From Bacteroidota bacterium (GTDB lineage Bacteria > Bacteroidota > Bacteroidia > Bacteroidales > VadinHA17), in assembly GCA_016868515.1 (NCBI GenBank), contig VGGM01000011.1, positions 1 to 12,562 of the forward strand: DNA of 12,562 nt, in the 5' to 3' direction. The position numbers were made by a program, and so were the translations under genes. Shown in pieces: positions 692 through 12,236 of this stretch. Each line of letters starts with the position of its first letter. The first letter of the stretch is position 1. The notes beneath the pieces were generated by a model. It made no database searches and had not been told where the DNA came from. It worked only from the letters and a program-made list of their open reading frames with translations.

Positions 692-1855
692 TCAGCGTCC
701 GAAAATCTGTTCCAGTTTGATGGCAAGGGTTCTGCCGAAAATGTTGGTGGCTACAATATCACCTCCGGGGTTATAAAGATAGTTTGCCGGCAGGGCCTGC
801 ACGTTGTAGAAATATGCATACTTCAGCTTAGCCGGATCGTCTTCTCTTACACTTATCCACGGAAGTTCGTCGAATGAGATGGCATTCTTCCATCGTAAAG
901 TGTCGGTGTCGATATTTATCTGGTATATCTCAAACCCACGGTTCCTGTACTGACTGTATAGTTCCTTTAGCTGAACATTGTTCTGGATACAGTCGGCCGA
1001 ACCTGTCGACCAGAAAGTAAGCAGCACATGTTTTCCCTTTAGCGACGAGAGTGAAACTCTTTTTCCGGCCGGAGTTAGGAGGTTCGGGTCGAGTTCAACA
1101 GGTTCCATGCTCTCGGCCACAAGCTGTAACTGGCGGTTCTGAAAACGGTTGAGTTCCCTGTTAAAATCTTCTGAGAGCGCTTTTACCTGCAGTGATGAGG
1201 GGTACCTTACAGAGAGACTGTCGGTAACCAGTTTCATAAGCTGCAGGTCGCGATCGGTGTAGAGGACATAGGTATTGTCGTTGAATCTCTGGTATAGAGC
1301 CAGAATCGAAACCATTGAGTTAAGGTTACTTAGAATGAAGTTGATGCTGTGATTCCGCTGTTCGGTGACAGTTTCGGTTATAAGGCGGTCGACCGAATCG
1401 GCCATGGCCTTCATGGCAGGCTTTGAAGCAAATGAATCGTAGGTTGTGACAAGTGAATTCAACCGCCTGCGTGTCTCTTCAAGTTTGTTTTCAAGATCCC
1501 TTATCATTACCGATTCGGGCGAGCCTTCAACCGAGAAATTTTCGGTAAGTCTATCGCCCGTAAAATCCAGTGTTATCTTGTCACCAGGATGAATCAGGAG
1601 GGTAACGAAGTCAGACCCGGAATAACCCACCTGGTAATACTCCGTTTGCGGGGCCTCAATCCTGAACCTGAATTTACCACCTGCCCTGAACTTTACTGTG
1701 TCAACCGCAACGACGCTTCCAATTTCTACCCGGGAAATCTGGATATTCTTCTCTTTCGGATTTTCAACCACACCGCTTATTACTGCGGTCTCCTTCCTGT
1801 TGCACGAAAGGATTGAAGAGATTATCAGAACCGGAATAAGAGACTTTCTGAGCAT
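692..1855 (-). CDS. Thioredoxin-fold (TlpA/ResA-like) lipoprotein with degenerate active site (SADC in place of CxxC)
   Basis: This 387-residue protein begins with a lipoprotein signal: a basic start, a hydrophobic core and the lipobox ILSC with Cys18, so it should be a lipid-anchored envelope protein. Residues about 20-120 form a beta-rich region resembling DUF4369; about 120-250 look helical; about 255-387 are a TlpA/ResA-like thioredoxin fold, with FW at 281-282, GFEIYQ at 307-312 and the cis-proline region at ALP (P356). At the active site, where relatives read WCxxC, it has G-S-A-D-C at 285-289. The buried Cys289 is kept and the nucleophilic N-terminal Cys is Ser286, so normal dithiol-disulfide exchange is not expected. 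It may act as a binding or monothiol partner. It lies 19 bp downstream of a paralogue of identical length with a normal CPPC site and 8 bp upstream of the lpxH-like gene. The specific partner is unknown. Confidence 0.85.
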   Translation of the reverse strand: MLRKSLIPVLIISSILSCNRKETAVISGVVENPKEKNIQISRVEIGSVVAVDTVKFRAGGKFRFRIEAPQTEYYQVGYSGSDFVTLLIHPGDKITLDFTGDRLTENFSVEGSPESVMIRDLENKLEETRRRLNSLVTTYDSFASKPAMKAMADSVDRLITETVTEQRNHSINFILSNLNSMVSILALYQRFNDNTYVLYTDRDLQLMKLVTDSLSVRYPSSLQVKALSEDFNRELNRFQNRQLQLVAESMEPVELDPNLLTPAGKRVSLSSLKGKHVLLTFWSTGSADCIQNNVQLKELYSQYRNRGFEIYQINIDTDTLRWKNAISFDELPWISVREDDPAKLKYAYFYNVQALPANYLYNPGGDIVATNIFGRTLAIKLEQIFGR

Positions 1856-1874
1856 GCCGGTACAGAATTGAATT

Positions 1875-3038
1875 CTAGTTCATAATATTTTCAAGTACCT
1901 CAAGCAGTGCCTCGCCGCGGAGATTTGACGCTATGATCTTTCCCTCCCTGTCGAGAAGCAGGTTAAACGGTATGCTTTCAATACGGTAGAGCGGTACCAC
2001 TACCGAATTCCAGAACATAACATCGCTTACGTGAATCCACCTTCCAAGCTTGTCATCTTCAATTCCCTTCAGCCATTCATCCCTGCTCTTGTCGAGGCTT
2101 ACCTGGTATATTTCGAATCCCTTTGCGTTGTACTTATCGTAAGCTTTGACCAGGTAGGGGCTCTCCTGCCTGCAGGGCGGACACCATGCTGCCCAGAAGT
2201 CGAGCAGTACCACCCTGCCCCTTGTTGAGGAGAGCTTTATTGTATCACCTTTGGGCGAGGGAAGAGCGATTTCTGGAGGAACCGCACCTTCGGTAAACTG
2301 AGATCCCCCTTCAGTCTGTTCCGACATCATCAGCTTCAGTTCGGCTACCTGGTCGTGAAAATAGATTACAGGTTCTGATTCGGGGTATAGCGAGAAGAGA
2401 ATTGAATCAACTTTCAGGAAGTAATCGAAATTCTCACTGGGGTGCAGTATGGGCGCTCCGGGTGTAAGCTGTTGGTAAAGAGCCAGCAGGGTGGCCAGCG
2501 ATGTGGGGTTCTCATCGATGTAATTACGTGTGTAGGCCTCCATATCGCTGATAATGGTCATGGCTCTTGAGTCGAGATCCTGAAGAATAGTGTCGAGCCC
2601 CGGGTTTTCAACATTGGCCATGTATATGTTCTGGAGCTCTTCAAGCCTTCCAACCGCAGCAAGAAGCTCTGTGTTGTAGCGAATCAGCAATTCGGTTCCT
2701 GCTGCCCCTGATGCTTCGGCCGGGCGGTTCAGTGAATCATAATGAGCTGTTATTTTGAGGTGTTCACCCGGATCGATGAGCACAGTAAGAAAACTGGTAT
2801 TGGTGGCTTTGAGCAGGTAGAACACCGGGCTGCCGGCTTTTCTGCGGAATTTAAACTCTCCGTCCTGGCTTAGTTTAAATGAATCGATGGTAACTATGGC
2901 ATCTTTCTTCAGTTCATCGAGGAGAATATAGGAATCGGACGGAGCGTTCTCAAGTTTACCCGATACTGTGTGATAGTTTCCGGTGCATCCCGATGAAATC
3001 ACCAGTACTCCGGCCAGTATGATTAAAAGATTCTTCAT
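1875..3038 (-). CDS. Thioredoxin-fold (TlpA/ResA-like) lipoprotein with intact WCPPC active site
   Basis: I place the start at the ATG at 3038-3036. From there the protein opens with a hydrophobic signal and the lipobox SSGC (Cys18). An in-frame ATG at 3182 would add 48 residues with no recognisable signal, bury the lipoprotein signal internally, and lie upstream of the likely promoter at 3072-3079. The chosen form is 387 residues, exactly the length of the downstream gene. Domains: DUF4369-like beta region about 22-120, helical middle about 115-245, thioredoxin fold about 252-387. The redox site is WCPPC with Cys286 and Cys289, followed by the cis-proline at IP (P357). The likely role is a lipid-anchored thiol-disulfide oxidoreductase facing the periplasm; substrate unknown. 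It is the first gene of a leftward three-gene operon, diverging from the glycogen operon. Confidence is high for family and moderate for function. Confidence 0.88.
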   Translation of the reverse strand: MKNLLIILAGVLVISSGCTGNYHTVSGKLENAPSDSYILLDELKKDAIVTIDSFKLSQDGEFKFRRKAGSPVFYLLKATNTSFLTVLIDPGEHLKITAHYDSLNRPAEASGAAGTELLIRYNTELLAAVGRLEELQNIYMANVENPGLDTILQDLDSRAMTIISDMEAYTRNYIDENPTSLATLLALYQQLTPGAPILHPSENFDYFLKVDSILFSLYPESEPVIYFHDQVAELKLMMSEQTEGGSQFTEGAVPPEIALPSPKGDTIKLSSTRGRVVLLDFWAAWCPPCRQESPYLVKAYDKYNAKGFEIYQVSLDKSRDEWLKGIEDDKLGRWIHVSDVMFWNSVVVPLYRIESIPFNLLLDREGKIIASNLRGEALLEVLENIMN

Positions 3039-3071
3039 TTTTGCCTGAATTATTAGATTATGAATGAAGTG

Positions 3072-3079
3072 CAAATATA
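3072..3079 (-). promoter_or_regulatory. Candidate Bacteroidota-type -7 element (TATATTTG) for the leftward lipoprotein operon
   Basis: On the minus strand this reads TATATTTG, an exact match to the TAnnTTTG -7 box of Bacteroidota housekeeping promoters. Transcription would begin near 3065 and leave a leader of roughly 25-30 nt before the ATG at 3038, which supports that start over the upstream ATG at 3182. No good TTG/TTTG -33 match is seen at the expected distance upstream, so the call rests on the -7 box and its position. Confidence 0.4.
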
Positions 3080-3183
3080 TGTTTTTTTGTGTGACAGGGG
3101 CCGTATTACTGATTTTCGTGCATGAGTTGACGAACAATTTGCCACTGTCAGGGTTAAATTTTAGTGAATTTTTGCCTTTCACT

Positions 3184-3246: not shown

Positions 3247-5190
3247 ATGGGTTATGTTAAATTCGATAAGTCTCAAGTAGTCAATCTTGAATACTCTTTA
3301 TCGCGTGAAATTGTAAGGACAAACAGGGCCGGTTCGTACTCGTCTACCACCATTGTAGGATGTAATACCCGGAAGTATCACGGCCTTCTGGTATGTCCGG
3401 TGAAGGAATTCGGCAATGAGAGGCATGTTTTATTGTCGGCGCTCGACCTCACCGTACTGCAGAATGACAAGTCATTCAACGTTGGCGTAAGGAAGTACAA
3501 GGGAGAGTACTACAATCCGAAGGGACATAAATACATAGAGGATTTCAACATTGAATACATCCCGATGATGACCTTCAGGGTTGGTGGTGTACTGCTGAGG
3601 CAGGAGAGGCTGCTTGTGCACTACGAGGAGCAACTTCTGTACCGGTATACGATTCTCGAGGCGGCAGAGCCACTCACTCTTCAGATAAGGCCTTTCCTTG
3701 CTTACCGCAATATTCACGGCCTTACCAGGGCCAATATGTCGGCCAATACACGTGTTGGATATATTATGAACGGGATAAACATATGCCTCTATGAGGGGTT
3801 TCCGACACTGCACATGCAGCTCTCGGCGAAAAATGAATTTGTTCCGGTTCCCGACTGGTATCTTGGCATTGAATATGCCGAGGAGCAGAAGCGTGGGTAT
3901 GATTATACCGAGGACCTTTTCAATCCGGGTTTCTTCGAGGTGAAGGCAAAGCAGGGCGATGTGATAATGTTCTCGGCATCAACGAAGGAGGAAAATCCGC
4001 CCGGATTAAAAACAAAGTTCACCGCCACAATAAAGAGAAAGGTTCCCCGAAACAGTTTTGAGCATTGTCTTGAGAACGCTGCACAACAGTTTATAGAGAA
4101 GCACGACGACTCCACCCTTATAATTGCCGGTTACCCCTGGTTCGGAGCCTGGGGCAGAGATACCTTCATTTCGTTACCCGGTGTTGCGCTGGGGCGTAAA
4201 CGTGAGGGGTTCTTTGAGGATGTTCTCGATACCCAGGTTGCAAGGATGAGGGACGGCCTCTTTCCCAATATGGGTGACGCCGGCAATCCTGCCTTCAATT
4301 CGGTTGATGCCCCGCTCTGGTTTTTCTGGTCGCTACAGCAGTATGAACTTCAAACTGGCATAAATCCGTGGAAACGGTATGGAGCTGCCGCGCGGTCGGT
4401 TATTGACGGATACCGCCAGGGAACCCATTTTAATATCCATATGCGCGATAACGGGCTTATTTATGCATCGGCCAACGGGAAGGCTCTTACATGGATGGAT
4501 GCCGTTGTACATGGTGTTCCGGTTACCCCCAGGAATGGTTACCCGGTTGAGATCAACGCACTGTGGTACAATGCAGTATGCTACCTTATTGACATGGCGG
4601 CTAGGGCAGGTGACAAAAAGCCCGGTAAGGAGCTGAAAGAACTGCCAGAGCTTATTAAGAAATCATTTTTTGAGATAATATGGGATGAAAAAACAGGTTT
4701 GCCGGCCGACTACGTAAGCGACGAACATGGAAAGGAGATGTCGTTGCGTCCCAATATGATAATTACCACCTCACTTCCATTTTCCTTGCTCACATCCGGG
4801 CAGATGAAAGGTATTCTCGACAAGGTTGCGGCCGAGCTCCTTACGCCGCGCGGACTGAGAACCCTTTCACCACGGCATGAGAAATACTGCGGTAGTTACA
4901 GGGGGAACCAGGAGGAGCGCGACAGTGCCTATCACCAGGGAACCGTGTGGCCATGGCTTCTGGGGCCCTTCTGCGACGGATGGCTGAGGGTGCATGGCAA
5001 ATCGGGTGCTGAAAAGGTAAGAAAACTTATTTACGGTTTTGAAGAGGTGATGACAGAGCATGGTGTCACAACAATATCGGAGATCTACGACGGCGACCCG
5101 CCGCATCAGGCGGGTGGCGCTATATCACAGGCCTGGAGTGTGGCCGAGGTGCTTAGAATACTGAAACTCATAAACACCAAGTATCAATAA
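3247..5190 (+). CDS. Glycogen debranching enzyme, amylo-alpha-1,6-glucosidase (GH133-type)
   Basis: This 647-residue cytoplasmic enzyme should hydrolyse the alpha-1,6-linked glucose left at branch points of limit dextrin. Residues about 1-250 resemble the GDE_N beta domain, with GSYSSTTIVGCNTRKYHGLL near the N-terminus. About 270-640 are the GDE_C (alpha/alpha)6 barrel: GAWGRDTF (R304, D305), TWMDA (D418), YHQGTVWPW (562-570) and SEIYDGD (E612). D418 and E612 lie where the acid/base pair of such barrels is expected; that assignment is inference. Unlike the eukaryotic bifunctional debrancher it has no GH13-like 4-alpha-glucanotransferase domain, so a transferase must come from elsewhere, perhaps the GH57 gene two genes on. 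The ATG at 3247 is the only plausible start, since an in-frame TAA lies at 3232-3234. It is the first gene of a four-gene operon, 13 bp before the GT4 gene. Confidence 0.92.
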   Translation: MGYVKFDKSQVVNLEYSLSREIVRTNRAGSYSSTTIVGCNTRKYHGLLVCPVKEFGNERHVLLSALDLTVLQNDKSFNVGVRKYKGEYYNPKGHKYIEDFNIEYIPMMTFRVGGVLLRQERLLVHYEEQLLYRYTILEAAEPLTLQIRPFLAYRNIHGLTRANMSANTRVGYIMNGINICLYEGFPTLHMQLSAKNEFVPVPDWYLGIEYAEEQKRGYDYTEDLFNPGFFEVKAKQGDVIMFSASTKEENPPGLKTKFTATIKRKVPRNSFEHCLENAAQQFIEKHDDSTLIIAGYPWFGAWGRDTFISLPGVALGRKREGFFEDVLDTQVARMRDGLFPNMGDAGNPAFNSVDAPLWFFWSLQQYELQTGINPWKRYGAAARSVIDGYRQGTHFNIHMRDNGLIYASANGKALTWMDAVVHGVPVTPRNGYPVEINALWYNAVCYLIDMAARAGDKKPGKELKELPELIKKSFFEIIWDEKTGLPADYVSDEHGKEMSLRPNMIITTSLPFSLLTSGQMKGILDKVAAELLTPRGLRTLSPRHEKYCGSYRGNQEERDSAYHQGTVWPWLLGPFCDGWLRVHGKSGAEKVRKLIYGFEEVMTEHGVTTISEIYDGDPPHQAGGAISQAWSVAEVLRILKLINTKYQ

Positions 5191-5203: not shown

Positions 5204-6496
5204 ATGAGAGTTCTGATGTTCGGATGGGAGTTTCCCCCGCATATCTCGGGAGGGTTGGGAACGGCAAGCTACGGTCTTACGAAGGGGATGGCCTCACTTG
5301 GCAACGTGAATGTGATATTTGTGGTGCCGAAGGCCTGGGGCGATGAAGACCAGTCGGTAGTGAAGCTTGTGGGAGCCAATACTGTTCCGGTTGCCTACAA
5401 AACCATTCATTATGCAGGGGGTAAGAAGAGTTTTGAGAAGATTGAGGTTGACTCAAGGATTATTCCATATACCGACCCTGAGGAGTTCTGGGCCTATACA
5501 CGCGGTGAAATTGATTCGAGGAAAATTGTCGTCTCAACCGATGAGAAGGGTAGAATTGAGTTCTCGGGCAAGTATGGATCCGGCCTGCTCGAGGAGATAC
5601 GCAAGTATGCCATTGTAGCTTCTGTAATCGCGCATGAGAATGAGTTCGACGTAATACATGCGCACGATTGGCTGGCTTATCCGGCCGGAATTGAAGCTGC
5701 CAGGGCCTCAGGCAAACCTCTGGTCATACATGTCCATGCCACTGACTTCGACCGCAGCGGCGGCAATGTCAATCCCGATGTCTACGCCATTGAGAAGAGC
5801 GGCATGGATTTCGCCTCAAGAATAATAACGGTAAGTAACCTTACCCGCGATATTGTTATCAACAGGTACAATATCGACCCCGATAAGGTTGTTACGGTAT
5901 ACAATGCCGTTGATCCGGTGGAGATTGCCGACAACCATCTGATCAGCAGGGGCTTTGACGAAAAGGTTGTTACTTTCCTCGGCCGTATCACATTACAGAA
6001 GGGGCCCGAATATTTCATTGAGGCCGCTCACAGGGTTCTTAAGGTAATGAATAATGTCCGCTTCGTAATGGCCGGTTCGGGCGACATGATGGACAGAATG
6101 ATTCGCAGGGCAGCTGCCCTGAGGATTACCGACCGGTTTCATTTTACCGGGTTCCTGCGCGGTAACGATGTATTCCGCATGCTGGCCATGAGCGATGTTT
6201 ATATAATGCCATCGGTATCGGAACCATTCGGCATTTCGCCGCTCGAGGCCATGCAGTCGAATGTACCTGTCATCATCAGCAAGCAGTCGGGTGTGGCTGA
6301 AATCCTTACCCATGCGGTAAAGGTTGATTTCTGGGATATAGATGCCATGGCCGATGCCATTTACGGAATTCTGAACTACCCGGCTTTGTCGAGAATGTTC
6401 ATACGCAATGGCAGGGAGGAAGTTATTGCTCTCAAGTGGGAGAATTCAGCCAGGCAGGTAAGAACGGTTTACAGAGAGGTACTTGCACGTAATTAG
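5204..6496 (+). CDS. GT4-family glycosyltransferase of the glycogen/alpha-glucan operon
   Basis: This 430-residue soluble GT-B enzyme opens with FGWEFPPHISGGLGTAS, whose G16-G17-L18-G19 loop matches the donor-binding glycine loop of GT4 and starch-synthase-like enzymes. HAHDW lies at 152-156. The C-terminal half has the nucleotide-sugar-binding strand FLGRITLQKG and the E-x7-E pair E340/E348 in EPFGISPLE. No signal peptide or membrane helix is seen. In Bacteroides, GT4 genes of this kind sit beside GH57 and GH133 genes, which suggests alpha-glucan synthesis or elongation. Donor (ADP-, UDP- or GDP-glucose) and acceptor cannot be told from sequence, and a priming or maltosyl-transfer role is equally possible. 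It lies 13 bp after the debranching gene and 22 bp before the GH57 gene; a purine-rich GGCGGA lies shortly before its ATG. Confidence 0.88.
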   Translation: MRVLMFGWEFPPHISGGLGTASYGLTKGMASLGNVNVIFVVPKAWGDEDQSVVKLVGANTVPVAYKTIHYAGGKKSFEKIEVDSRIIPYTDPEEFWAYTRGEIDSRKIVVSTDEKGRIEFSGKYGSGLLEEIRKYAIVASVIAHENEFDVIHAHDWLAYPAGIEAARASGKPLVIHVHATDFDRSGGNVNPDVYAIEKSGMDFASRIITVSNLTRDIVINRYNIDPDKVVTVYNAVDPVEIADNHLISRGFDEKVVTFLGRITLQKGPEYFIEAAHRVLKVMNNVRFVMAGSGDMMDRMIRRAAALRITDRFHFTGFLRGNDVFRMLAMSDVYIMPSVSEPFGISPLEAMQSNVPVIISKQSGVAEILTHAVKVDFWDIDAMADAIYGILNYPALSRMFIRNGREEVIALKWENSARQVRTVYREVLARN

Positions 6497-6518: not shown

Positions 6519-7985
6519 ATGAAACATGTTTCCAGGAAAGCCGTATGTCTTCACTTTGAGGTTCACCAGCCCTTCAGGCTTAAAAGCTACAGGTTCTTTG
6601 ACCTGGGGCATGATCATTATTATTATGATGATTACGCCAATGAGTCGATAATGCAGCGGATTGCCGCGAGGTGTTACATTCCTGCCAATAAGATTCTTCT
6701 CGATCTTATCAGAAAGCACAAGGGTAAGTTCAAGGTTGCATTCTCAATAAGCGGACTTGCTCTCGACCAGTTCAGTCTATACACTCCCGAGGTTATTGAT
6801 TCCTTCAGGCAGCTTGCTGCCACCGGATCCGTTGAGTTTCTTGCCGAAACCAACTCACACTCGCTGGCTTCGCTCAAAAGCCGCGAGGAGTTTGAGAAGC
6901 AGGTTAACCAGCACACACAAAAGATGAAGGACCTGCTTGGTGTGGAACCTACTGCGATCAGGAACACAGAGATGATCTATTCCGACCAGATAGGGGCATG
7001 GATGGCCGATATGGGATTCAGGGTGACACTGACCGAGGGAGCCAAGCATGTTCTTGGGTGGAAAAGTCCGAACTTCGTTTACTGTAACAGTATTAATCCC
7101 CGGCTGAAAGTACTTCTAAGGAACTTTGTACTGAGCGATGATATTGCCTTCAGGTTTTCGAACAGGGACTGGTGCGAGTGGCCACTGACGGCCTCGAAGT
7201 ATGCAGGATGGATAAGCCAGCTGGCATCGTCGGGCGAGGTGGTTAATATTTTCATTGACTACGAGACCTTTGGCGAGCATCACCGCAGCGAGTCGGGGAT
7301 AATGGATTTCCTGGCCCATTTTCCCGGAGCTGTGTTAAAGAGCACTCCGTTTGTATTCATGACACCAACTGAGGTCGCCGACCACTTTCAGCCCATTGCA
7401 CCGGTTCAGGTTCCCTCACCCATATCGTGGGCCGACGAGGAGAGAGACCTGACAGCCTGGCTGGGCAACGAGCTTCAGACCGCGGCATTTGAAAAGCTAT
7501 ATGACCTTTCGGAAAGGATAAACACCTGCGCCGGTGAGGAACTGAAGAAGGATTGGGTATATTTGCAGTCGAGTGACCATTTTTATTACATGTGCACCAA
7601 GTTCTTTTCCGACGGGGCCGTGCATGCCTACTTTAATCCCTATGAGACTCCCTACGACGCATTTATGAATTACATGAACATTCTGAGCGACTTCGAGCTC
7701 AGGATCAACAGGGAGGCACCGTGCAGCGAGGAGTTTAATATTGCCCGCAGGATGAAGGAAGCCGCAAGGGATAAGGATTTTTTAATTGAGAACCTTCAGC
7801 GCGAGCTTGACCAGCTGCGGAAAAAGGTACGGAAGCCTGTACCGGCAAAGAAGAAGCCGGTGGCAAAGAAGGCTGCTGTGGCAAAAAAGGTGCCGGCAAA
7901 GAAAGCAGCGGCAGCGAAGAAGGTGCCGGCGCTGAAGAAGGCGGCGGTAAAGCGGACTGCCGGAAAGCAGGTGAACAAGAAGTAG
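6519..7985 (+). CDS. GH57 alpha-amylase / 4-alpha-glucanotransferase-like enzyme with Lys/Ala-rich C-terminal tail
   Basis: This 488-residue protein has the GH57 motifs: VHQPFR near the N-terminus, AETNSHSLAS in the second block, RNTEMIYSD with the likely nucleophile E151, and FIDYETFGEHH with the likely acid/base D247. The first His of the usual HxHQP is Glu here. No signal peptide is seen, so it should act on cytoplasmic glycogen or maltodextrin. The Glu-Asp distance of 96 residues is close to that of Thermococcus litoralis 4-alpha-glucanotransferase (E123/D214) and unlike GH57 branching enzymes or AmyC, where the gap is about 165-170. This favours transferase or amylase activity over branching. 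Residues about 415-440 form a probable short coiled coil (NLQRELDQLRKKV), followed by a 47-residue basic tail. It starts 22 bp after the GT4 gene and ends 27 bp before the fusion gene. Family confidence is high; exact activity is uncertain. Confidence 0.9.
   Translation: MKHVSRKAVCLHFEVHQPFRLKSYRFFDLGHDHYYYDDYANESIMQRIAARCYIPANKILLDLIRKHKGKFKVAFSISGLALDQFSLYTPEVIDSFRQLAATGSVEFLAETNSHSLASLKSREEFEKQVNQHTQKMKDLLGVEPTAIRNTEMIYSDQIGAWMADMGFRVTLTEGAKHVLGWKSPNFVYCNSINPRLKVLLRNFVLSDDIAFRFSNRDWCEWPLTASKYAGWISQLASSGEVVNIFIDYETFGEHHRSESGIMDFLAHFPGAVLKSTPFVFMTPTEVADHFQPIAPVQVPSPISWADEERDLTAWLGNELQTAAFEKLYDLSERINTCAGEELKKDWVYLQSSDHFYYMCTKFFSDGAVHAYFNPYETPYDAFMNYMNILSDFELRINREAPCSEEFNIARRMKEAARDKDFLIENLQRELDQLRKKVRKPVPAKKKPVAKKAAVAKKVPAKKAAAAKKVPALKKAAVKRTAGKQVNKK
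7842..7982 (+). repeat. Lys/Ala-rich low-complexity tail coding region with an 11-residue repeat
   Basis: This encodes residues 442-488 of the GH57 protein. The tail has 17 Lys, 1 Arg and 14 Ala in 47 residues and no acidic residue, built from AKK and KKVPA units. The KKVPA unit recurs at residues 456-460 and 467-471, and the 11-base string AAGGTGCCGGC recurs at 7887-7897 and 7920-7930, a 33-bp period that keeps frame. Such tails resemble those of histone H1-like bacterial proteins and may bind nucleic acid, membranes or acidic proteins. The role on a glucan enzyme is unknown. Confidence 0.85.
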
Positions 7986-8012: not shown

Positions 8013-11000
8013 ATGAAGCCTGATTTTCTTTTTGAAACAAGTTGGGAGGTTTGCAACAAGGTTGGCGGAATACATACCGTTGTATCGACCAAGGCCCTTA
8101 ATATTGTTAACGAGCTTGGCAACAACTATATTCTTATCGGCCCAGATGTGTGGCGCGAGGATGTAAGAAACCCTGAGTTCATTCCCGATGAATCGCTTTT
8201 TGTTCCCTGGAAGGGAGTGGCTGCCGGCGAGGGGCTAAGGGTTAAGACCGGGAGGTGGAACATTGCAGGCCGGCCTATTGTAATTCTTCTTGATTTTACA
8301 CCTTACTTCGGGCAGCAGAATGAGATATTCGCGAAATTCTGGGAGACATATAAACTGGACAGTATTTCAGGTCAGTGGGATTATGTTGAACCGGCTTTGT
8401 TCGGATATGCAGCCGGCAAGCTTATTGCCAGTTTCACCTCGTTTTACCGCGACAGTCAGGCTGTTGTGGCCCAGTTCCACGAGTGGATGACGGGAACCGG
8501 GGTGTTATATCTGAAGGAACATGCACCCTGGGTTGCCACATCGTTCACTACACATGCTACAGTACTGGGCAGGTCAGTTGCAGGGAACGGCAGGCCTCTT
8601 TATAGCAATATGAAGCAGTACATTCCGGCCCAGATGGCACGTGAATTCAATGTTGCTGCCAAACAGTCGCTCGAAAAACTCAGTGCAGCCGAGGCCGATG
8701 TTTTCACCACAGTAAGCGGTATTACTTCGAAAGAGTGTGCCCATTTTCTTGGCAAGGAGGTTAATTATGTGACACCCAATGGCTTCGAGGATTCCTTCGT
8801 GCCTTCCGATAAGGAGTTTGAGGGCAAAAGACAGGCTGCACGCAAGAAACTGCTCGATGCAGCGGCTGCTGTTCTGGGGCACGAGCCGTCGAAAAATGCA
8901 CTGCTGGTTGCCAACAGCGGCAGGTACGAATTCCGCAATAAGGGTATTGATATCTTAATTGATGCGCTCGGAAGCCTTAACCGCGACAAGGGAATTAGCC
9001 GCGAGATAATTGCCTTTATCCTTATGCCTGCTTATCACTCAGGTCCCAGGTCTGACATTGCAGCAGCTCTTGCCGACAGGTCGGTTCAGAATACAGGCGA
9101 TAAATTCCTGACACACGGACTTCATTTCCTCGGTTCCGACCCCGTACTCGGAAGGCTGGCTCAGAATCATATTGGAAATGAGCAGGGTTCAAAAGTTAAG
9201 GTCATTTTCGTACCATCGTATCTCAATGGTGATGACGGAATTTTCAACATGGCCTACTATGACCTGCTGATTGGTTTTGACCTTACGGTATTTCCGTCAT
9301 ACTATGAACCATGGGGATACACTCCGCTGGAAAGCCTTATGTTCTCCATACCTACTATTACCACTAACCTGGCCGGGTTCGGTCTTTGGGTTAAAACCTA
9401 CTTCTCCGAGCCGGGTAACGGCATAGCCGTAGTTGAGCGGAGCGACGAAAATGAGTCGGGGGTTGTTGAGGAGATGTGCAGTTTCATTGCCGGTTTCTCA
9501 TCACTGTCGGCGGCCGGGGTGGCTGAAGCCAGGAAGAAGGCGCATGAGATATCCAGAATCGCCATGTGGGACACCCTCGTGCACCATTACTTTGATGCAT
9601 ATTCCTTCGCTCTGCTTTCGAGCGAGTTGCGCAGGTCGGAACCACGCGAATTTGCGATTGTGCTCGGGGCGCAGGCCGGTGAGAGCAGGAAGCCTCACCA
9701 GGTACCGGTATGGAAGGATATTTTTGTCCAGTCAGATGTTCCTGCCAGGATGGCCTGTCTGAAGGAACTGGCATGCAATCTATGGTGGTCGTGGAACAAT
9801 GATGCCGAGAGTATGTTCAGGCGTATGGACCCCACATTATGGGACACCTGCGGCCATAATCCGAGGCTTCTGATTGAAAAGATCGATTACAAGCGGCTGC
9901 AGGTGCTGGCTGATGATGAGCAGTTCATTGGCGAGATGGATACGATATACCGGCGGTTCAGGGAGTACATTGACAAGCCTGTCGATACCTCACGACCGCT
10001 TGTTGCCTACTTCAGTATGGAGTTCGGATTGCACCACTGTCTGAAAATCTATTCCGGCGGTCTCGGCATACTTGCCGGCGATTACCTGAAGGAGGCAAGC
10101 GATTCCAATATACCCCTGGTGGCAATAGGTCTGCTTTACCGCTACGGCTACTTCCGCCAGAAGCTTGGCCCTAAGGGTGAGCAGATAGCCATTTACGAGG
10201 CCGAGGACTTTTCACACCTGCCCATCTGCCCCGTTAAGGATGAAAAGGATAACCATTTATCGGTGAGCCTTGTATGGCCAGGGCGCACAGTTGTTGCCAG
10301 AATATGGGAGGCCAGGGTTGGCAAGGTAAGACTCTACCTTCTCGATACCGATCATGATGAGAACAGCCAGGAAGACAGGTCAATAACTCATCACCTTTAC
10401 GGAGGCGACAATGAAAACAGGCTGAAACAGGAGCTTATTCTTGGAATAGGTGGCATCAGGGCTCTGAATCTGATGGGAATCAGGCCTGATGTTTTCCACA
10501 GTAATGAGGGTCACTCGGCGTTTATAGGAATAGAACGGCTGTTCCACCTGATTAATGACAATCATCTGAGGTTCCAGGAAGCCATCGAGGTAGTAAGGTC
10601 GACCACCCTGTTTACAACACATACCCCTGTTCCGGCAGGTCATGATGCTTTTGAGGAGGATATGCTGAGGAGGTATATTTCACATTACCACTCGCGGCTC
10701 AATATTTCATGGGACGAACTCATGGCTCTTGGGAGGTGTGAGTCGGAAACCGAACGCAAGTTCAACATGAGCTACCTTGCAACAAGGCTTTCACAGGAGG
10801 TAAACGGAGTAAGCAAGCTGCACGGCGAGGTGTCGAGGGGTATGTTCAACAAGCTTTGGCCGGGGTATCTTAAGGAGGAACTCTTCGTGGGGCACGTTAC
10901 CAATGGTGTTCACCATCCTACCTGGCTTGCTCCTGAATGGCGCGATGTTTATGAGGAACTTACGGGAGAGAGGTACTTCGACCAGACTGACCGCAGTTTG

Positions 11001-12236
11001 TGGGAGCGTATTTACACCCTCGACGACAAGAGGGTGTATGATATCAGGAAAACACTTAAGTCATCACTTTTCAAGGAGATACGCAGCCAGTTACAGACCG
11101 AGATGCTTGAGCGGCATGTGAGTCCGAGGAAACTCCTGAACATCAGCACCCACCTTGATGAGAATGTGCTCACCATCGGATTCGCAAGGAGGTTTGCCAC
11201 CTACAAGAGGGCTCATCTTCTCTTCACCGACCTCGACAGGCTCGATGCCATTGTGAACAATCCCGACAAACCGGTGCAGTTCATATATGCGGGTAAGGCA
11301 CACCCCCATGACGGCGGCGGACAGGACCTTATCCACCGCATAAACGAGATATCGCAGATGCCAAGGTTCGCGGGCAAGGTCCTTTTCCTCGAGAACTACA
11401 ATATGGAGCTTGCAAAGCTGCTGGTGAGGGGGGTCGACATATGGCTCAATACGCCCACGCGGCCACTCGAGGCTTCAGGAACCAGTGGTGAAAAGGCCGT
11501 AATGAACGGTACTATCCATTTCAGTGTGCTCGACGGATGGTGGGTTGAGGGATACCGTGCATTCGCCGGCTGGGCTCTGCCGCAAAAGAGAACATTTGCC
11601 AACCAGGCACTGCAGGACGATATCGATGCCGAGACGATATACAATATGCTTCAGTATGAGATCATTCCTGCTTATTATTCGTTCAACGAGAACAGGGTGC
11701 CTGTTGAGTGGGTAAGTCTGGTGAAGAACACAATGGTTAAGATTGCTCCCGAGTTTACCATGAAGCGTATGATTGATGACTATTCGGAGAAGTATTATAT
11801 GCCACTCTGGAAGAGAAGCAGGATAGTTATTACCGATGACTTTGCCCTTGCAAGGAACCTGGCCGCATGGAAACAGCACATGTCAAATGAATGGGACAAC
11901 ATTCACGTTCTGTCGTACAGTTTTGAGAAGCCCGATGGTAATATTTACAGATCGGGTAAAAAATATTCTGCCGAGGTGGTACTCGATGTCAAGAACATCC
12001 CTGCCGAGTCGGTTGGGGTGGAGTATGTAATAACCCGTATGCAGGTTAGCGGTGAGTTTGAGTTTGTAGCCAGGGGCGAGTTTAAGGCTGTAAGCGTTAA
12101 GAACAGCAAGTGCTACTACAAGGCTGAGCTTACACCCGAGAAGGCCGGCTCATTCTTCTATGGCATCCGCATATATCCGAAGCATGCTGCACTGCCACAT
12201 CGGCAGGATTTCCCGCTGCTGCGGTGGATTGACTGA
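8013..12236 (+). CDS. glgP: Bifunctional fusion: eukaryotic-type glycogen synthase (GT3) + alpha-glucan phosphorylase (GT35)
   Basis: This one 1407-residue frame joins two enzymes. Residues 1-550 match eukaryotic-type glycogen synthase (GT3): WEVCNKVGGIHTV (11-23, donor loop), FHEWMTG, FTTHATVLGR, TPNGF, and SYYEPWGYTPLE with the E-x7-E pair E432/E440. About 575-1407 match the DUF3417-containing alpha-glucan phosphorylase family: NLWWSWN near the start, YSGGLG (680-685), NEGHSAF (831-837), THTPVPAGHD (869-878), HVTNGVH (961-967), FARRFATYKR (1057-1066), the PLP lysine K1161 in SGTSGEKAVMNG, and a C-terminal beta domain ending IRIYPKH...LLRWID. GT3 should extend alpha-1,4 chains from a nucleotide sugar; GT35 should release glucose-1-phosphate. 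All motifs look intact, with no frameshift between halves. The symbol applies only to the phosphorylase half. It is the last gene of the operon, 27 bp after GH57. Family calls are near certain; both activities in one protein are inferred. Confidence 0.93.
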   Translation: MKPDFLFETSWEVCNKVGGIHTVVSTKALNIVNELGNNYILIGPDVWREDVRNPEFIPDESLFVPWKGVAAGEGLRVKTGRWNIAGRPIVILLDFTPYFGQQNEIFAKFWETYKLDSISGQWDYVEPALFGYAAGKLIASFTSFYRDSQAVVAQFHEWMTGTGVLYLKEHAPWVATSFTTHATVLGRSVAGNGRPLYSNMKQYIPAQMAREFNVAAKQSLEKLSAAEADVFTTVSGITSKECAHFLGKEVNYVTPNGFEDSFVPSDKEFEGKRQAARKKLLDAAAAVLGHEPSKNALLVANSGRYEFRNKGIDILIDALGSLNRDKGISREIIAFILMPAYHSGPRSDIAAALADRSVQNTGDKFLTHGLHFLGSDPVLGRLAQNHIGNEQGSKVKVIFVPSYLNGDDGIFNMAYYDLLIGFDLTVFPSYYEPWGYTPLESLMFSIPTITTNLAGFGLWVKTYFSEPGNGIAVVERSDENESGVVEEMCSFIAGFSSLSAAGVAEARKKAHEISRIAMWDTLVHHYFDAYSFALLSSELRRSEPREFAIVLGAQAGESRKPHQVPVWKDIFVQSDVPARMACLKELACNLWWSWNNDAESMFRRMDPTLWDTCGHNPRLLIEKIDYKRLQVLADDEQFIGEMDTIYRRFREYIDKPVDTSRPLVAYFSMEFGLHHCLKIYSGGLGILAGDYLKEASDSNIPLVAIGLLYRYGYFRQKLGPKGEQIAIYEAEDFSHLPICPVKDEKDNHLSVSLVWPGRTVVARIWEARVGKVRLYLLDTDHDENSQEDRSITHHLYGGDNENRLKQELILGIGGIRALNLMGIRPDVFHSNEGHSAFIGIERLFHLINDNHLRFQEAIEVVRSTTLFTTHTPVPAGHDAFEEDMLRRYISHYHSRLNISWDELMALGRCESETERKFNMSYLATRLSQEVNGVSKLHGEVSRGMFNKLWPGYLKEELFVGHVTNGVHHPTWLAPEWRDVYEELTGERYFDQTDRSLWERIYTLDDKRVYDIRKTLKSSLFKEIRSQLQTEMLERHVSPRKLLNISTHLDENVLTIGFARRFATYKRAHLLFTDLDRLDAIVNNPDKPVQFIYAGKAHPHDGGGQDLIHRINEISQMPRFAGKVLFLENYNMELAKLLVRGVDIWLNTPTRPLEASGTSGEKAVMNGTIHFSVLDGWWVEGYRAFAGWALPQKRTFANQALQDDIDAETIYNMLQYEIIPAYYSFNENRVPVEWVSLVKNTMVKIAPEFTMKRMIDDYSEKYYMPLWKRSRIVITDDFALARNLAAWKQHMSNEWDNIHVLSYSFEKPDGNIYRSGKKYSAEVVLDVKNIPAESVGVEYVITRMQVSGEFEFVARGEFKAVSVKNSKCYYKAELTPEKAGSFFYGIRIYPKHAALPHRQDFPLLRWID

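Follow-up and report, generated by a model that had tools for sequence, protein, structure and literature searches.

A fused glycogen synthase and alpha-glucan phosphorylase in the Bacteroidales, a putative bifunctional glycogen enzyme

Introduction

In the textbook control of glycogen metabolism, the synthase and the phosphorylase are separate and oppositely regulated proteins. Synthases of glycosyltransferase family 3 (GT3) transfer glucose from a nucleotide-glucose to a glucan, producing a longer glucan and a nucleoside diphosphate (NDP), and phosphorylases of family GT35 use phosphate to convert a glucan into a shorter glucan and glucose-1-phosphate. The stretch of DNA analyzed here (the window) is the entire contig C11 (12,562 bases) of a fragmented Bacteroidota genome bin (2.25 Mb, 78% complete), and it contains a gene in which a GT3 and a GT35 enzyme are joined in one protein of 1407 amino acids (aa).

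The same pair of activities is combined in one KEGG entry, K16153, which is given in a table of PMC8307300 as 'glycogen phosphorylase/synthase [EC 2.4.1.1 2.4.1.11]'. No difference between this entry and the fused protein was found, and both domains of the 1407-aa protein lie in one open frame, as K16153 implies. JGI names among the listed homologues include 'glycogen phosphorylase/synthase' and 'phosphorylase/glycogen(starch) synthase', from which we infer that K16153 was built on exactly these fused proteins.

In Bacteroides finegoldii and Parabacteroides distasonis, homologous GT3 and GT35 genes are arranged in tandem, in the same order and on the same strand, 38 and 73 bp apart, respectively. 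These tandem genes encode two polypeptides instead of one fused chain, and such split genes form a sister clade. The glycogen phosphorylase of Segatella copri (PDB 9l6i, 20yr) is a stand-alone relative of the GT35 half that was solved without a GT3 half; 9l6i aligns across the whole GT35 half, with an identity of 47-48% over the modelled part. Set against yeast Gsy2p and human GYS1, the GT3 half is missing the arginine cluster, has a shorter q342-366 stretch, and is attached to a phosphorylase. Long GT3 proteins of other Bacteroidota (L003-L015 and L023) also belong to the GT3 family, but they are unfused, show 27-31% identity, and, unlike the fused GT3 half, have both the insert and a largely preserved arginine cluster. 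A 2024 Chemical Reviews article (PMC11046441) presents a tree in which the GT3 of Bacteroidetes is nested inside DPANN archaea, and the parts of that article covered here do not mention a GT3-GT35 fusion. The architecture is already known, and its enzymology and evolutionary pattern were not found in print in the open-access literature.

Results and discussion

Domain composition of the fused protein

The fused frame starts with ATG and contains no internal stop codon (Table 1). The Pfam profile PF05693 (Glycogen_syn) matched the protein with 310.6 bits (cut-off of 27), placing the N-terminal half in GT3, and covered aa 8-341 plus a second stretch at 9111-9617. Other Pfam matches were DUF3417 (114.9 bits) and Phosphorylase PF00343 (113.9 bits). 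The NCBIfam profile TIGR02094 (alpha-glucan family phosphorylase) scored 833.2 bits against a cut-off of 191.7, with its whole length (1-600 of 600) aligned to aa 664-1264; this full match and the N-terminal DUF3417 assign the GT35 half to the TIGR02094 subfamily. In a protein search, 6673 homologues were found at E<=1e-3 (7997 candidates scored), and among the best 120, which were compared, coverage of the query was 100% in 119 and 94% in one. The stop-free frame, the domain profiles, and the full-length homologues bear out the real fusion claimed by the original prediction, which had also given the coordinates, the VGGI loop, E432, E440, and K1161 correctly. The prediction's term 'eukaryotic-type' is loosely worded: the synthase half is shortened, and its identity to the long eukaryote-like GT3s is 27-31%.

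Table 1. Coordinates of the fused gene, its parts, and the upstream operon genes in the window
Feature	Coordinates	Strand	Length, residues, or basis
Fused GT3 glycogen synthase / GT35 alpha-glucan phosphorylase	8013..12236	+	1407 aa; profiles, homologues, open frame
GT3 glycogen synthase half, aa 1-543	8013..9641	+	VGGI loop aa 17-20, H181, R187, R304, K310, E432, E440
Loose linker, aa 547-573	9651..9731	+	Predicted local distance difference test (pLDDT) below 50
DUF3417 domain, aa 576-677	9738..10043	+	Pfam; N-terminal part of TIGR02094 phosphorylase subfamily
GT35 alpha-glucan phosphorylase half, aa 565-1407	9705..12233	+	H870, N964, R1060, K1065, E1153, pyridoxal phosphate (PLP) lysine K1161
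Glycoside hydrolase family 133 (GH133) amylo-alpha-1,6-glucosidase (glycogen debranching), first operon gene	3247..5190	+	GDE_C, GDE_N; synteny
GT4 glycosyltransferase, starch/glycogen-synthase-like	5204..6496	+	Profile matches; synteny
GH57 glycoside hydrolase/glucanotransferase, Lys/Ala-rich C-terminal tail	6519..7985	+	Profile matches; synteny

The halves are joined by a poorly conserved linker; in an alignment of 58 fused proteins, q536 and q565 are separated by 25-30 residues. A structure predicted for aa 1-1010 had a template-modelling score (pTM) of 0.77, and the low-confidence linker gives no support for a rigid inter-domain interface, as judged in this model from pLDDT and pTM alone. 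As to an internal restart that would yield a separate phosphorylase, the linker DNA, read by eye, showed no in-frame ATG before M580 and only TTG (L539) and GTG (V550).

Distribution of the fusion

At least 590 stretches in the genome collection encode a relative, of which the best 80 were kept; these were ranked by similarity to the fused query and thus give no measure of frequency. Both halves were in one frame in all 80 loci, although L047 and L063 were without the C-terminal end. Cultured carriers of the fusion include Perlabentimonas gracilis (L073). An order-level search of 393 genomes gave a match in 352 and none in 41. The 352 genomes were classed by hand from the match positions, and the lists were recounted by script. 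Both halves occurred in one frame in 257 genomes, comprising 233 with a full-length fused gene, 22 with an incomplete gene that spans the junction and in most cases is cut off by a contig end, and two with a truncated GT3 half. Tandem separate GT3 and GT35 genes were found in 66 genomes, a class in which the DNA was checked for 41 genomes and the others were judged from match positions and stops. The remaining genomes had GT3 and GT35 at distant sites or on separate contigs (seven), GT35 with a different long GT3 elsewhere (three), GT35 only (12), or were unclassified (seven; six fragments and G637, whose gene, L248, begins where its contig does).

Among 395 sampled genomes of the phylum, a GT3 match was present in 21: one fused (this genome), four with separate adjacent genes from the same order, 13 with long unfused GT3s, and three below the cut-off. 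No fusion was found outside the order in this sample. These results support the claim that similar genes occur in other Bacteroidota. The view of the fusion as an unusual arrangement stands as far as its reality is concerned, but not as to rarity, as it is the commonest state in the sampled order and a KEGG entry for it exists. No stop separates the halves in the frame, and 231 of the 233 full-length fused genes of the order were free of stops.

The other two full-length genes, L260 (G691) and L261 (G578), are each interrupted by one in-frame TGA, which lies in the GT35 half of one gene and in the GT3 half of the other and reflects either a sequencing error or a young pseudogene. Two further loci differed from the usual picture. 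L052 is assigned to Candidatus Heimdallarchaeota, but its contig, with a fused gene that shares 56-63% identity with the 1407-aa protein, is probably misplaced, and the open frame around the fused gene at G429:C77:53920-58146 spans 1891 aa and thus exceeds the usual length by about 480 residues.

Catalytic residues and selection

We compared 118 fused rows, which represent 104 distinct sequences because 14 genomes are present twice. In the GT3 half, R304, K310, E432, and E440 were kept in 103 of the 104 distinct sequences, the exception being L173, which has a deletion. In the GT35 half, H870 and N964 were kept in 103 of 104, and R1060, K1065, E1153, and K1161 in 102 of 104, with the missing cells in L063 and L215, both cut by contig ends. 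The same residues of both halves were present in 38 of 38 split rows. The E-x7-E pair E432/E440, R304, and K310 align with the yeast and human enzymes, as expected of GT3, and the PLP lysine K1161 and the phosphate-site residues R1060, K1065, E1153, and H870 are in place, as expected of GT35; we presume that these residues have the donor-binding and catalytic roles of GT3 and the PLP and phosphate-site roles of GT35. Other changes were a W434 to Y replacement in the fused row L136 and alterations at G18, E157, and R187 in L173.

Ratios of nonsynonymous to synonymous substitution rates (dN/dS) were calculated for 22 fused genes, of which four pairs with dS below 1.6 were used, none including the 1407-aa protein. 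The values were 0.13, 0.06, 0.05, and 0.07 for the GT3 half and, for the same pairs in order, 0.11, 0.04, 0.03, and 0.03 for the GT35 half, so that both halves look to be under purifying selection. The near-invariant residues in fused and split rows agree with the earlier statement that both catalytic sets are intact. The accompanying statement that neither half appears to be a dead regulator applies to the 1407-aa protein, but not to one genus (two genomes), where only a truncated remnant of the GT3 half is left.

Regulatory elements of the synthase half

In eukaryotic glycogen synthase, we take the arginine cluster to mediate control by glucose-6-phosphate (G6P) and the insert to provide tetramer contacts. 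At the cluster positions 500, 501, 503, 507, and 509, R or K was found in 8, 13, 13, 14, and 12 of 14 eukaryote-like GT3s, and in 12, 19, 20, 97, and 53 of the 118 fused rows, respectively. The q340-367 stretch had a median of 28 residues in fused rows versus about 79 in eukaryote-like GT3s. With its degraded cluster, the GT3 half does not have the arginine cluster and insert of a G6P-regulated eukaryotic synthase. The split clade is likewise short at q340-367 (median of 30), indicating that the loss of the cluster and insert is not a consequence of the fusion.

Evolutionary history of the fusion

Trees were built with FastTree for each half and rooted with unfused relatives (173 and 184 rows, including 14 duplicate pairs). 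In the first trees, all fused rows formed one clade (support of 0.92 and 0.96), with the tandem genes as its sister clade (0.95 and 1.0). The fused clade held in a larger GT3 tree (0.93), where L260 and L261, each with its in-frame TGA, were the only rows inside it that were not in one frame. In the simplest reading of these trees, the fused genes probably go back to a single event that joined tandem genes. L262 (G423), a fused gene with the GH57 neighbor typical of the fused operon, belonged to the fused clade according to the GT3 tree (0.93), but the GT35 tree grouped it, together with the GT35-only gene L154, with the split clade (0.98). Because L262 is placed differently in the two trees, fusion may instead have been followed by fission in the split clade. 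In the GT35 tree, the GT35-only family f127 took a basal position in the fused clade; here, GT3 may alternatively have been a late addition to an operon that began with GT35 alone. Three genomes of f127 (G465, G567, and G658) contain a GT35-only gene and, at another site, a long GT3 of the eukaryote-like kind, which looks like a replacement of the synthase.

Inside the fused clade, the GT35-only genes L246 and L247 stood beside the fused genes L250 (0.998) and L249 (0.992), respectively, and the GT35-only pair L156/L163 fell within a group containing fused members (0.97). The phosphorylase tree clearly points to at least three independent losses of GT3, and L154, beside the fused L262 (0.994), may represent a fourth (the f85 case). 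The upstream DNA was checked in 11 of the 12 GT35-only genomes, all but G489, whose phosphorylase is only 35% identical, and a GT3 was found in none of the 11. A GH57 gene lies directly upstream in 8 of 11 (L154, L156, L163, L246, L255, L268, L271, and L272); therefore, the operon is in place there with the GT3 half missing. In the genus g206, the frames of L173 (472-3942, G426) and L257 (564-4127, G538) remain open across both halves, the C-terminal catalytic domain of GT3 is deleted, and the TTHATxLGR motif is altered, whereas a third genome of the genus, G632 (L206), has an intact gene. The order yielded no clear example of the opposite loss, that of GT35 with GT3 retained, the GT3 fragments of G547, G579, and G642 not being assignable.

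Proposed function and competing explanations

We propose that the fused protein is an active bifunctional glycogen enzyme whose direction follows the supply of substrates, a reading to which we assign a probability of about 0.62. The N-terminal GT3 head would add glucose from a nucleotide-glucose, most likely UDP (uridine diphosphate)-glucose, to the non-reducing ends of glycogen, and the C-terminal GT35 head would use phosphate to release glucose-1-phosphate from these ends. The linker, being flexible, would keep both heads on the same particle at a 1:1 stoichiometry, where they would meet the same chain ends, and the debranching enzyme, GH57, and GT4 would be supplied from the same operon. 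UDP-glucose is the likely donor because PMC4432691 cites glycogen synthesis via UDP-glucose in Prevotella bryantii (Lou 1997a), a review (PMC10395257) states that Bacteroidetes lack GlgC, and glgC (TIGR02091) was above the cut-off in none of 36 genomes (hand-chosen from the genomes with the fusion, plus G000). Because the eukaryotic arginine cluster is gone, net direction would probably be set by the supply of nucleotide-glucose, phosphate, and glucose-1-phosphate and by transcription; an enzyme directed in this way could therefore also cycle glycogen.

Several points weigh against this proposal. No biochemical study of the fusion was found in the open-access literature, in agreement with the original prediction. 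In the same 36 genomes, galU (TIGR01099) was above the cut-off in just three, and PF01704 was above it in none, a result that is uninformative because its 14 controls were equally silent. Another regulatory site may be present despite the missing eukaryotic arginine cluster. Moreover, judging by the 66 tandem and 12 GT35-only genomes, some lineages can do without the covalent link, or even without the GT3 half.

The strongest competitor, which we nevertheless regard as unlikely, is that two neighboring glycogen genes were joined once and are equally expressed, with each half kept working separately and without functional coupling. The poor conservation and predicted looseness of the linker would fit such a history, as would the sister lineages in which tandem genes suffice; however, the fused state has been retained in 233 full-length cases, the fused clade of the GT3 tree is broken only by the two genes with one TGA, and several genomes dropped the whole GT3 half instead. 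It is more doubtful still that one head mainly helps the other, for example, a phosphorylase that trims or primes chains for the synthase, or a synthase domain that serves as a glucan-binding anchor for the phosphorylase. The GT3 remnants of g206, without the catalytic C-domain and still fused to GT35, and the repeated loss of GT3 speak for such a role, but the catalytic residues of GT3 hardly vary among the remaining fused rows examined, and the dN/dS of GT3 is low. An assembly artefact or a missed stop has nothing specific in its favor beyond the fragmented, 78% complete bin, and is practically ruled out by the independent genomes of the order with full-length, stop-free fused genes, including the single-contig genomes G525, G586, G605, G615, and G702.

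The proposed bifunctional enzyme could, in a rather improbable version, be a built-in cycling device in which both heads work simultaneously at shared chain ends, with the net reaction of nucleotide-glucose and phosphate to NDP and glucose-1-phosphate. PMC4432691 describes simultaneous glycogen synthesis and breakdown in several microbes, with suspected energy spilling, and lists energy spilling in P. bryantii with its mechanism not determined; we take these statements as the ground for the cycling idea, not as evidence for it. If it were true, Bacteroidales could dispose of surplus sugar or buffer it with no need for a regulatory switch, and the repeated loss of the synthase head from operons that are otherwise whole would mark lineages that dropped storage or cycling yet still consume alpha-glucan. 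Most sampled genomes of this order encode synthase and phosphorylase as a single chain, and the fused, tandem, synthase-less, and truncated-synthase states constitute natural experiments. With these natural variants, the setting of direction without a known allosteric site, and deliberate cycling, become directly testable questions.

Operon and neighboring genes

Among the best 80 loci (the main set), 52 had at least 5.5 kb upstream, and 49 of these showed the order GH133-GT4-GH57-fusion on one strand, with the fusion at the operon end; none of GH133, GT4, and GH57 was found in the other three. Of the 28 loci with shorter flanks, 13 displayed part or all of the same order and 15 none. In a second set of 32 fused loci with 1.5 kb upstream, some of which are from the same genomes as main-set loci, GH57 was there in 26 and not in six. 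GH57 did not adjoin any of nine split loci (eight with about 1.5 kb upstream and one with 0.3 kb). Another contig of the same bin has a 684-aa frame that resembles a branching enzyme and matches CBM48, and a CBM48 match was present in 29 of the 36 hand-chosen genomes.

At its C-terminus, the GH57 protein of the window has a tail of about 55 residues rich in Lys, Ala, and Pro (KKVRKPVPAKKKPVAKKAAVAKKVPAKK...), which to our eye resembles histone H1-like tails. Additionally, 692-3182 on the minus strand encodes a pair of neighboring thioredoxin-fold proteins of DUF4369/TlpA-like type; the WCPPC motif of one is replaced by GSADC in the other.

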